DNA from: Paracoccaceae bacterium
Lineage (GTDB): Bacteria; Pseudomonadota; Alphaproteobacteria; Rhodobacterales; Rhodobacteraceae
Direction of reading: 5' to 3'
Assembly (NCBI GenBank): GCA_020629115.1
Contig: JAHDDY010000004.1
Coordinates: forward strand, 28,751-91,906
DNA: 63,156 nt
Shown here: positions 53,366 through 56,786 of the stretch, piece by piece
How positions within the stretch are numbered: the first letter of the stretch is position 1
Layout of the letters: each line of letters starts with the position of its first letter
The notes under the pieces: generated by a model
What the model was told of the DNA's origin: nothing
The model's database searches: none
Seen by the model: the letters and a program-made list of their open reading frames with translations, nothing else
Position numbers and translations under genes: made by a program

Positions 53366-54784
53366 TCAGAGCACTCCGGTTGCGGGCAGGTCGATATCGT
53401 CGCGCGCGGCCATCGCCTCGCGGGGCGAGAGGCCGAGGAAGAGGATGGCGGGGCCGGTGATGCCCGCCCCCGTCAGCGCGTCGGGCAGGCGGTCCAGCGT
53501 TGTGGCGACGATCCTCTGGTCGAGGCGCGACACGTTCTCGATGGCCGTGACGGGCGTATCCGCCGCCGCGCCGTGCATCAGCAGCCGCCCGGCGAGGAAG
53601 CGCGCGGCGCGCACGCCCATGTAGATGGCCGCCGGTTGCACCGCGCCGCCCTCCCCCGGCTGGGCCAGCCCGCGCCAGTCATGCTCGGCGAACCCGGCCA
53701 CGTCGTGCCCGGTCAGGAGGCGAAAGGCGGCGTTGCGCCCCCGCTTCGTCCAGCTCACCCCGAGGCTCGCCGCCGCCGCCGAGGCCGCCGTGATGCCGGG
53801 AACGATCTCGAAGGGGATGCCGGCGGCGTCGAGCGCGTCCATCTCCTCGTCCAGCCGCCCGAACACCACCGGGTCGCCTGATTTCAGCCGCGCCACATGC
53901 GCGCCGTTCGCGGCGTGCTCGACCATGAGCGCGTCGATATCGGCCTGCTTCCAGGACGGGCCGTTCGGGATCTTGCCGACCTCGACGACGATGGCCTCGC
54001 GTCGGGCCAGCTCCAGGATCTCCGGCGAGACAAGGCGGTCGTGGATGACAACATCGGCCTCGTGCAGCGCCTTGCGCGCCTTGAGCGTCAGCAGCTCCGG
54101 ATCGCCCGGCCCCGCACCGATCAGGGCGACGCGGCCCGTCTCGCCCGCCTCGGCCAGAGTCTCGGCCAGCAACGCGTCGAGCGCCGCGCGCACCGCTTCC
54201 TCGCCGCCCTCGGACAGGGCGCGGGGACCGATCTCGTCGTAGTAGCGCGACCAGAAGCGGCGGCGGGGGCGACCCATGGGCAAGGCGTTCGCCGCCTCGC
54301 GAAAGCCCTGGCCGATCCGGGCGAGCGTGCCGAGCGCGGGGGCGAGGCGCTCCTCGGTCTCGGCCTTGATGCGCCGGGCGAGCACGGGGGCCGCGCCCTC
54401 GGTGCCGATGGCGACGGTCACCGGATCGCGGTCCACGATGGCGGGGGTGATGAAATCGCTGTTGTCGAGGTCGTCGACGATGTTGACCATCGCCCCCGCC
54501 GCGCGGCCGATGCGCGCGGCGCGGGCATCCTCGCCCGCCTCCTCGTTCGCGCCGTAGAGCAGCGCGGCGCACAGCGCATCGCCGTGCCGGACGGGCCGCT
54601 CGACCAGCGTCAGCCGCCCCTCGCCGGCCCAGCGCCGGATCTGCGGATGCGGGTCGGTGCCGTAGACGGCGAGCGTCGCCTCCGTCTTGAGCAGCAGGCG
54701 CAGCTTGGCCACCGCCGCCTCGCCCGCGCCGGACACGACGACGCGGCGGGCGCGCAGATCTCTGAAAACCGGAAAATGACGCAT
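53366..54784 (-). CDS. cysG: Siroheme synthase CysG
   Basis: A trifunctional enzyme making siroheme from uroporphyrinogen III. The N-terminal half (1 to about 205) is the precorrin-2 dehydrogenase/sirohydrochlorin ferrochelatase, with the Rossmann motif GAGEAA (19-24) and NIVDDLDNSDFITPAIVDRDPVTVAIGTEG. The C-terminal half from about 217 is uroporphyrinogen methyltransferase: VALIGAGPGDPELLTLKARKALHEADVVIHDRLV and SGDPVVFGRLDEE. At 472 residues it has the standard length. It opens the operon cysG-DUF2849-cysI-DUF934, all on the minus strand. Confidence 0.96.
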   Translation of the reverse strand: MRHFPVFRDLRARRVVVSGAGEAAVAKLRLLLKTEATLAVYGTDPHPQIRRWAGEGRLTLVERPVRHGDALCAALLYGANEEAGEDARAARIGRAAGAMVNIVDDLDNSDFITPAIVDRDPVTVAIGTEGAAPVLARRIKAETEERLAPALGTLARIGQGFREAANALPMGRPRRRFWSRYYDEIGPRALSEGGEEAVRAALDALLAETLAEAGETGRVALIGAGPGDPELLTLKARKALHEADVVIHDRLVSPEILELARREAIVVEVGKIPNGPSWKQADIDALMVEHAANGAHVARLKSGDPVVFGRLDEEMDALDAAGIPFEIVPGITAASAAAASLGVSWTKRGRNAAFRLLTGHDVAGFAEHDWRGLAQPGEGGAVQPAAIYMGVRAARFLAGRLLMHGAAADTPVTAIENVSRLDQRIVATTLDRLPDALTGAGITGPAILFLGLSPREAMAARDDIDLPATGVL

Positions 54785-55083
54785 GGGGATGCTCCTCTAC
54801 CTGCGACGGAAGATAGGATCATTTTCCAGTTTCGGATAGATTTGCCGCGCCGATAGGAACGCGGTTCCGACATGCGCCGAATACGGGTGATGGCGTTCGA
54901 TATCGGCGGTCGGGACGGACCGTGGCGGCCCGTCACGCGTCCGGGCCGAAATCCCGTTCCCGTCCTCTGCAGGCATCAGCCGGGCAAGCGCGCATAGGAC
55001 GCTCTGTTCCGGGCCGGATGACCGTGGCCTAAATCAATCGAGATGTGTTCCGAAAGACACAATCTGAACCCTATGAAATTTTT
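54785..55083. promoter_or_regulatory. Upstream region of cysG (no gene)
   Basis: Nothing codes here. The cysG-proximal 70 bp are A+T-rich and carry three direct GATAG elements at 54812, 54835 and 54852 (plus strand). No riboswitch pattern is recognised. They might bind a regulator of sulfur metabolism, but this is speculative. The rest, 54860-55020, is high-GC with no obvious feature. Confidence 0.35.
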
Positions 55084-55219
55084 GACCACGTTTTTCGCGC
55101 CGCACACTTGAATTGCTGCATCGCAAAAAGCATCTTCGATCGCATGACGTTCGCGTCATCGCCCTTCGGGGCGTTTCCTCCCTGGACTCGGGCCGCTGTT
55201 CTCAGCGGCCCCTTTTTTT
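55084..55219 (+). ncRNA. Candidate small RNA with two UUCG hairpins, an anti-SD tract and a terminator
   Basis: A plus-strand segment with no reading frame ends in a strong terminator. Its 3' part reads in order: hairpin A ATGACG-TTCG-CGTCAT (55144-55159), hairpin B CGCCC-TTCG-GGGCG (55160-55173), a single-stranded C/U tract TTCCTCCC (55175-55182) complementary to a Shine-Dalgarno sequence, and the terminator at 55190-55219. UUCG tetraloops and a C/U-rich seed are the architecture of alphaproteobacterial anti-SD small RNAs such as the CcsR/alpha-r14 group. The 5' end is unknown; a weak -10 (TATGAA, 55072-55077) would start it near 55084. The neighbours on both sides read the other strand. Confidence 0.6.
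55190..55219 (+). terminator. Strong intrinsic terminator with no upstream protein gene
   Basis: A perfect 9-bp stem GGGCCGCTG/CAGCGGCCC, loop TTCT, then a C and seven Ts. It is oriented plus, whereas both neighbouring genes (cysG and the amidohydrolase) are minus, so it must serve another transcript. Confidence 0.9.
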
Positions 55220-55223
55220 GTCC

Positions 55224-56129
55224 TCACTCGGCCGCCATGGCGGTGCCGAGGCGCAGGGGGAGGCTGGCCAGCTCGGCGATGATAGGGTCGAGCCGCCTTT
55301 TCAGGACCTGGTAGTTCGCGGTCGGGACCATGCGCCTGGCATCGAGATAGAGGCTGCGGTCGATCTCGATCTGGATGGCGTGGATGCCCGCGCGCGGGGT
55401 GCCGTAGCGCTGGGTGATGTACCCCCCGGCGAAGGGCGCGTTGCGGGCCACGCGAAACCCCGCCTCCCGGAAGAGCGCGAAGGCCGCGTCCGAGATATCC
55501 GCATCCGCCGAGGCCCCGTAGCAGTCGCCGATCACGATCTCGGCCCGACGGCTGCCCCGGCGTGCGGTGTCGGGCGGCATGGAATGGCAATCGACCAGCA
55601 GCGCGATGCCGTGACGCTGGCGCGCCCGGTCGAGCGCCTGGGACAGGCGGGCGTGGTAGGGGCGGTAGCAGCATTCGATCCGCGCCGAGACCTCGCCCAT
55701 CGGCAGCTTGCCCTCGTAGATCGGCGTATTCTCCGCGACGATGCGCGGCACCACGCCGAGGCCCGCCGAGACGCGCAGGGTGCGCGGGCGGCGCGACGTG
55801 TAGCGGGCGATCAGCGCGGGGTCCAGTTCGTCGTCGGCCCGGTTCGCGTCGAGGAAGGCGCGGGGGAACTGCGCGGCGACGAGGGGAGCGCCGTAGCGCG
55901 GGGCCACGGCGAAGATGTCGTCCACGAACGCATCCTCGGACGCGCGCAGGACGGTATCGTCCAGCCGGGAGGTCCGCCGAAACGCCTCAGGGTAGTGCCG
56001 GCCGCTATGGGGAGAGCTGAAGACCGCCGCGCTGCCGACATGGCGAGGCTCGTGCACGACGACCGCCTCCCCCGTCCACCCGCACAGGGCCGCCGCATCC
56101 CTCGCCATGCATCGCTCCGGTAATTTCAT
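55224..56129 (-). CDS. N-formylglutamate amidohydrolase family protein
   Basis: A 301-residue zinc amidohydrolase of the N-formylglutamate amidohydrolase (HutG-like) family. Characteristic blocks are FSSPHSGRHYPEAF, ASEDAFVDDIF, DANRADDELDPAL, LLVDCHSMPPDT and PFAGGYITQRYGTPRAGIHAIQIEIDRSLYLDARRM. It would hydrolyse N-formyl-L-glutamate to glutamate and formate, though no other hut gene is present. ATG 56129 is the best start; the gene is divergent from the CpdR-like gene, as in many alphaproteobacteria. Confidence 0.9.
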   Translation of the reverse strand: MKLPERCMARDAAALCGWTGEAVVVHEPRHVGSAAVFSSPHSGRHYPEAFRRTSRLDDTVLRASEDAFVDDIFAVAPRYGAPLVAAQFPRAFLDANRADDELDPALIARYTSRRPRTLRVSAGLGVVPRIVAENTPIYEGKLPMGEVSARIECCYRPYHARLSQALDRARQRHGIALLVDCHSMPPDTARRGSRRAEIVIGDCYGASADADISDAAFALFREAGFRVARNAPFAGGYITQRYGTPRAGIHAIQIEIDRSLYLDARRMVPTANYQVLKRRLDPIIAELASLPLRLGTAMAAE

Positions 56130-56711: not shown

Positions 56712-56786
56712 GGGCGCGTAGCTCAGTGGGAGAGCACCTCGTTGACATCGAGGGGGTCGCAAGTTCAATCCTTGCCGCGCCCACCA
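56712..56786 (+). tRNA. tRNA-Val (anticodon GAC)
   Basis: Complete cloverleaf of 75 nt including an encoded CCA. The acceptor stem is GGGCGCG with CGCGCCC. The D arm follows GTAGCTCAGTGGGAGAGC. The anticodon stem CCTCG/CGAGG closes the loop TTGACAT with GAC at 56744-56746. The T arm reads GCAAGTTCAATCCTTGC. The discriminator is A. It decodes GUC and GUU valine codons. Confidence 0.95.

Follow-up and report, generated by a model that had tools for sequence, protein, structure and literature searches.

The alpha-r8 group of small RNAs (Rfam RF00519), with a part in the control of carbon storage and nutrient uptake, includes MmgR of S. meliloti and SisA of Caulobacter crescentus, the closest described systems to the locus reported here. 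MmgR, whose background we take from reviews and later papers, is a 77-nt RNA with three stem-loops and an anti-Shine-Dalgarno (anti-SD) tract (PMC7143759, PMC8401924, PMC12542648), and it is Hfq-dependent and limits PHB (PMC7143759, PMC8401924). The two reviews disagree on phasins, the synthesis of which is preserved by MmgR according to one (PMC7143759) and lowered according to the other (PMC8401924), and no direct pairing partner of MmgR is known, S. meliloti included (PMC12559287). The S. meliloti mmgR gene has a conserved dyad between its -35 and -10 elements, with AniA/PhaR as negative and NtrC as positive control (review PMC8401924); an EMSA shift of the mmgR promoter with PhaR is reported in PMC12542648, which also gives the PhaR motif, written out here as WNWDDNYGCRNYGCRNHHWNW. 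According to section 7 of PMC12559287, alpha-R8 RNAs carry the 10-mer UUUCCUCCCU and have their home position next to an N-formylglutamate amidohydrolase (FGase) gene. SisA has this 10-mer, a place downstream of FGase and a terminator (PMC12559287, section 7); it represses a TonB receptor mRNA via the 10-mer, as supported by compensatory mutations, and acts on further mRNAs too (sections 8 and 9). The same source places alpha-R8 in all Alphaproteobacteria but Rickettsiales.

The window analysed here is a stretch of 63,156 nt in which the siroheme synthase and FGase genes, both on the minus strand, enclose a gap at 54785-55223 (Table 1). A cmscan search of positions 54800-55300 against Rfam returned seven families with matches up to an E of 5. 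RF00519 (suhB), named 'Makes More Granules Regulator RNA (mmgR)', came first; its plus-strand match at 55154-55226 scores 66.4 bits (cut-off, 41) and covers the full length of the model (positions 1-77). Both published marks of alpha-r8 RNAs are present, namely FGase adjacency and the 10-mer, which is placed after a hairpin and before a Rho-independent terminator as the alpha-r8 definition requires. The segment is almost certainly an mmgR gene (suhB/MmgR, alpha-r8) for a trans-acting, presumably Hfq-dependent sRNA of about 76 nt, the mode of action of which would follow that of the S. meliloti and Caulobacter members. A previously unannotated gene is thereby assigned to a known family, of which it is an ordinary member.

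Table 1. Features of the mmgR locus; positions are those of the window.
Feature	Position	Strand	Basis or description
Siroheme synthase gene	53366-54784	-	TP_methylase, NAD_binding_7 and CysG_dimeriser domains (Pfam)
Putative -35 element TTGAAT	55108-55113	+	Sequence; 17-nt spacer to putative -10
Predicted PhaR/AniA-type operator AATTGCTGCATCGCAAAAAGC	55111-55131	+	Matches the S. meliloti PhaR motif at 20/21 positions
Operator core TGCATCGCA	55117-55125	+	Within AATTGCTGCATCGCAAAAAGC
Putative -10 element CATCTT	55131-55136	+	Spacing only; weak consensus match
MmgR/alpha-r8 small RNA, predicted transcript, 76 nt	55144-55219	+	RF00519 match; 5' end predicted, 3' end from terminator
Hairpin 1	55144-55159	+	ATGACG-TTCG-CGTCAT; 6 bp, UUCG loop
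Hairpin 2	55160-55173	+	CGCCC-TTCG-GGGCG; 5 bp, C(UUCG)G loop
Anti-Shine-Dalgarno tract TTTCCTCCC	55174-55182	+	Read from sequence
Alpha-r8 10-mer UUUCCUCCCU, anti-Shine-Dalgarno seed	55174-55183	+	Sequence; same as published alpha-R8 10-mer
Intrinsic terminator	55190-55219	+	9-bp stem, UUCU loop, U7 tail
FGase gene, convergent neighbour marking the alpha-r8 locus	55224-56123	-	PF05013, 248.9 bits

The first-pass annotation had described two UUCG hairpins, the anti-SD tract, a 9-bp terminator stem and seven Ts, and all of these are read directly from the sequence at the positions it gave, the terminator being GGGCCGCTG-TTCT-CAGCGGCCC at 55190-55211 with the Ts at 55213-55219. Its reading of the segment as a plus-strand gene for an anti-SD sRNA that has a terminator to itself is supported by the sequence. 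In a scan of 54500-55700, the two terminator-like sites (shuffle average, 0.5) are both on the plus strand and both correspond to the sRNA terminator; the flanking genes read minus. The interval 55138-55219 folds at -37.9 kcal/mol, compared with -23.9 +/- 2.88 for 200 dinucleotide shuffles (z = -4.86), none of which is as stable; in the minimum free energy fold, a weak 3-bp UCC/GGA pairing covers part of the 10-mer, so that this stretch, single-stranded in alpha-r8 RNAs, may be partly paired here. Compared with the Rfam consensus, the window RNA has GGACUC after the 10-mer instead of AGACUU, and both of its upstream loops are UUCG. The candidate RNA had been drawn at 55084-55219, of which the part from about 55144 to 55219 stands as RNA; we infer that the bases upstream of about 55143 are promoter. 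In S. meliloti 13 nt separate the end of the PhaR site, 3046699 (PMC12542648), from the mmgR RNA start, which a table in PMC7143759 gives as 3046712. With the same distance, the RNA here would start on the first base of hairpin 1 (55144) and be 76 nt long, compared with 77 nt for MmgR.

The order of hairpins, CU-rich tract and terminator had led the first-pass annotation to compare the RNA with the CcsR and alpha-r14 groups. CcsR, which the first-pass annotation places beside a DUF1127 gene, occurs in several copies, and Rfam includes a covariance model for alpha-r14 (NfeR1 group). The general layout is indeed alike, but neither group is named among the seven Rfam families found up to E 5 in 54800-55300, the RNA has one copy in the assembly, its flanks are siroheme synthase and FGase genes and not DUF1127, and the locus bears the alpha-r8 position and promoter marks. 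The kinship thus gave way to suhB/MmgR, and the chance that the RNA belongs to another anti-SD family, CcsR or alpha-r14, is very small. The single copy differs from the situation in Caulobacter, where four siblings (SisA and SisB-D) and a sponge, CrfA, are found. A second candidate from the Rfam search is SorY, the singlet oxygen resistance RNA of Rhodobacter sphaeroides (RF02651), which resembles the window RNA in its CCUCCCU tract, short spacer and GC-rich terminator. Its model gives 33.3 bits on 55161-55218; however, the cut-off is 111 bits, suhB gives 66.4 bits on the same stretch, and the SorY-like GUUGGACUU is not present in the window RNA. The SorY assignment was dropped on these scores, and a SorY-type RNA is very improbable here. 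More likely, the cross-match reflects distant kinship or a common design of anti-SD tract and terminator; the mutual matching of the SorY and alpha-r8 models hints at distant kinship.

The mechanical open reading frames that run across the segment allow another reading, in which there is no functional sRNA and a terminator stands beside chance hairpins, or a short ORF (e.g. 55045-55314, plus strand) is what is read. This reading was weighed against the pattern of substitutions among relatives. A MAFFT alignment of the window and 26 relatives (27 rows) was used, in which the family loci L016, L018 and L019 were left out for want of a perfect hairpin 1 and the class loci were not included; the count was then repeated with these three loci (30 rows). 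With 27 rows, two-sided changes occur in 73 cells over the three helices, compared with 25.7 in shuffles, and the covariation score is 0.383 compared with 0.196; none of 500 shuffles reaches the cell count or the score, and structures slid along the alignment give at most 24 two-sided cells. With 30 rows, the values are 82 cells compared with 30.8, and 0.385 compared with 0.207. On four of five measures, no shuffle out of 500 equalled the alignment; the fifth, further pair types, was not above shuffles (30 vs 29.9). In addition, UUCCUCCCU is invariant over the 27 rows but not over the 30, in which L018 and L019 deviate; L019 is without the anti-SD tract and yet above the RF00519 cut-off. The two-sided changes in three helices, together with the invariant UUCCUCCCU of the 27 rows, indicate constraint at the RNA level. 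By inspection, the hairpin lengths of relatives vary by numbers not divisible by three, which argues against a conserved reading frame. A coding or chance origin of the segment is accordingly very unlikely.

The paired changes in both hairpins that had been named beforehand as a test of the sRNA were found. Hairpin 1 has two-sided (compensatory) changes at 6/6 pairs, hairpin 2 at 2/5 pairs with 27 rows and 3/5 with 30 rows, and the terminator stem at 7/9 pairs. Since only 70 to 73% of its cells pair, the alignment or the stem of hairpin 1 is imperfect in some rows. Under a stricter criterion, which asks for four or more uninterrupted pairs in a stem ending at most 5 nt from hairpin 2, hairpin 1 is found in 11/11 genus, 15/18 family and 13/30 class loci, although that of the class locus L070 is no better than in shuffles. 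UUCG is a frequent loop of hairpin 1 among relatives and is not fixed. Hairpin 2 is paired in the RF00519 model, whereas the match starts at the 3' arm of hairpin 1, so the model leaves hairpin 1 unpaired. Hairpin 1 is not new, because MmgR is given three stem-loops in the review PMC7143759.

No sigma-70-like promoter was called by a scan of 54500-55700. A predicted PhaR/AniA-type operator lies between the putative -35 and -10 elements of Table 1, as the dyad does in S. meliloti, and TTG-containing stretches immediately precede the operator in many relatives (by inspection). On the PhaR motif, the window operator and the mmgR site of S. meliloti have equal scores (20/21). In the 80 nt that precede the Rfam match, the motif is present at 19/21 or better in 10/11 genus, 14/18 family and 24/30 class loci, compared with shuffle expectations of 0.94, 1.24 and 1.91, respectively; elsewhere in the same loci, it is present in 107 of 1894 stretches of 80 nt. 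The simpler form TGC-N3-GCA gives 10/11, 13/18 and 19/30, compared with 0.20, 0.30 and 0.50 in shuffles, and occurs in 84 of 1717 other 90-nt stretches. The operator core is absent from the genus loci L017 and L042 and from 6/30 class loci. The strict form CTGCN3GCAG, which is not in the window operator, is found in 1/18 family, 0/11 genus and 1/30 class loci, and a genome search with it was uninformative, since its 72 places per strand fall below the 229 found with the backwards control. The genome encodes PhaR (PF07879; both PHB_acc domains), and the single PF09361 phasin gene found in it has two 21/21 PhaR-motif sites upstream (L160, upstream of position 1381), one of which has TTGCTGCATCGCA, 13 bases, in common with the window operator. 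A literature search found nothing on TTGTGCA with mmgR, nor on a suhB sRNA in Rhodobacter.

The sequence thus shows that the RNA belongs to the family, has a covarying structure, lies beside FGase as is canonical, and carries a PhaR-type operator in its predicted promoter. Most likely, the sRNA gene is real, belongs to a known and widespread family, and sits in the canonical place with a known kind of operator. The S. meliloti circuit, in which the mmgR promoter contains an operator for PhaR, may be wired alike in the family and in 24/30 class loci, and a connection between carbon storage and uptake via PhaR and MmgR becomes testable beyond rhizobia.

From the S. meliloti and Caulobacter members, the following course of events might be expected. 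PhaR (AniA), bound between -35 and -10, would repress mmgR as long as storage polymer is missing; PHB granules, as they build up, would titrate PhaR off the promoter, and the RNA would be made. Its UUUCCUCCCU seed, framed by hairpins 1 and 2 and the terminator, would be available on Hfq, which the genome encodes, to pair with Shine-Dalgarno regions and block the translation of solute-uptake and perhaps storage-related mRNAs. The outcome would be less carbon uptake and less PHB build-up.

Candidate targets were collected with the pattern AGGGAGGA followed by ATG or GTG within 12 nt, of which the genome has 28 instances, 16 on one strand and 12 on the other (backwards control, 8 + 8). The Pfam scan covered 21 of the 28 frames, seven frames of at most 60 aa being left out, and 11 frames have a family above cut-off and the look of a true gene start. 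Six of these belong to solute uptake (L106, L114, L115, L117, L118 and L124); L117 and L118 share a contig and a strand, with about 2.4 kb between them, and probably form a single transporter operon. Among the genes with the pattern are four solute-binding proteins, two ABC permeases, ribosomal L16, an AMP-binding enzyme and a PQQ-dependent dehydrogenase (L109), the last with AGGGAGGAAAC directly before its start (position 63), 11 nt that are fully complementary to the sRNA seed region. The control pattern AAGGAGGA has 35 genome occurrences (backwards control, 8 + 11); 26 frames among 30 loci were scanned, the remainder being three short frames and a duplicate, and 11 true starts were obtained, two of them for uptake (L133 and L138). 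With true and internal starts sorted by judgement after the matches were seen, the enrichment of uptake genes, 6/11 vs 2/11, is not significant (Fisher one-sided p = 0.091, or 0.14 with L117 and L118 as one), and the excess among the pairing candidates is a hint at most. Pairing at the phasin start (-16.5 kcal/mol) is no better than at sites inside the phasin gene (-9.9 to -20.7 kcal/mol), and three other candidates tested pair more strongly, at -22.8 to -27.7 kcal/mol; a direct effect on phasin is not supported by these predictions. Because of the uptake counts and of the phasin start being no better than internal sites, we propose that the RNA acts by the standard alpha-r8 mechanism and that its likelier targets are uptake mRNAs.

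RF00519 matches above cut-off were found in 13/14 genomes of the genus, the own genome included (the exception is 68% complete), and, under strict filters, in only 19/248 genomes of the family, the own included, and in 155/385 genomes of the class (E up to 1e-7). In the family, 107/248 genomes have a match at E 0.001 or better, mostly weak. These tallies are below the published spread of alpha-R8, for which filters, divergence or loss may be the causes. The strong relatives examined number 59, the window not counted: 18 loci from the family search (L017 belongs to the same genus; a second above-cut-off match in genome G074 is omitted), 11 more from the genus, and 30 among the class matches. 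FGase lies within 1.5 kb of the RNA in 46 of the 59 and is convergent in all 46, and a CpdR-like response regulator gene follows beyond FGase in 25 of the 59 (the L045 sequence ends too soon to tell). The first-pass annotation had set the 'sulfur/CpdR junction' apart from the DUF1127 setting of CcsR. The junction is not odd, because the FGase side is the published alpha-r8 home (PMC12559287, section 7) and the CpdR-like gene recurs beyond FGase. A response regulator domain (31.4 bits; cut-off, 30.2) is the sole Pfam result for the 'CpdR' of the window, and a tRNA gene is found downstream of it at 56712-56783 on the plus strand.

From the FGase end to 330 nt upstream of the RNA match, no intrinsic terminator on the minus strand was seen in 17 of 22 loci (the window, 11 genus and 10 family-search loci), in all of which the same script detected the plus-strand terminator; the other five have a minus-strand signal, that of L011 being fair. 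By inspection, the FGase stop codon TAA of L036, L037 and L039 appears inside the complement of the sRNA U-tail (cf. 55213-55226 in the window). With no minus-strand terminator and with stop codons in the U-tail complement, the FGase mRNA may therefore cross mmgR as a perfect antisense. That this pairing is functional, with FGase mRNA or read-through towards the siroheme synthase gene sponging or destroying MmgR, seems unlikely to us; Rho-dependent termination or simple inheritance of the map would explain the FGase arrangement without any function. If it were true, it would be a cis-encoded counterpart of CrfA, the trans sponge of Caulobacter, and would account for the mmgR-FGase pair staying joined across the class. 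A literature search, with the founding MmgR papers outside its scope, found nothing on mmgR with N-formylglutamate or on FGase antisense to an alphaproteobacterial sRNA.

Among the weaker RF00519 matches (n = 18; 11 from the family and 7 from the genus), FGase is beside two and convergent in one. Five of the weak family matches (L025, L028, L029, L030 and L031) have a SorY-like CCUCCCUGUUGGACUU and a GGCCGAG-type terminator, and, unlike the window, these loci have no FGase within 1.5 kb. L021, L024 and L026 represent another type of weak match, with CCUCCCUGUCAGACUGG before the terminator, and possibly form a separate group of anti-SD RNAs.
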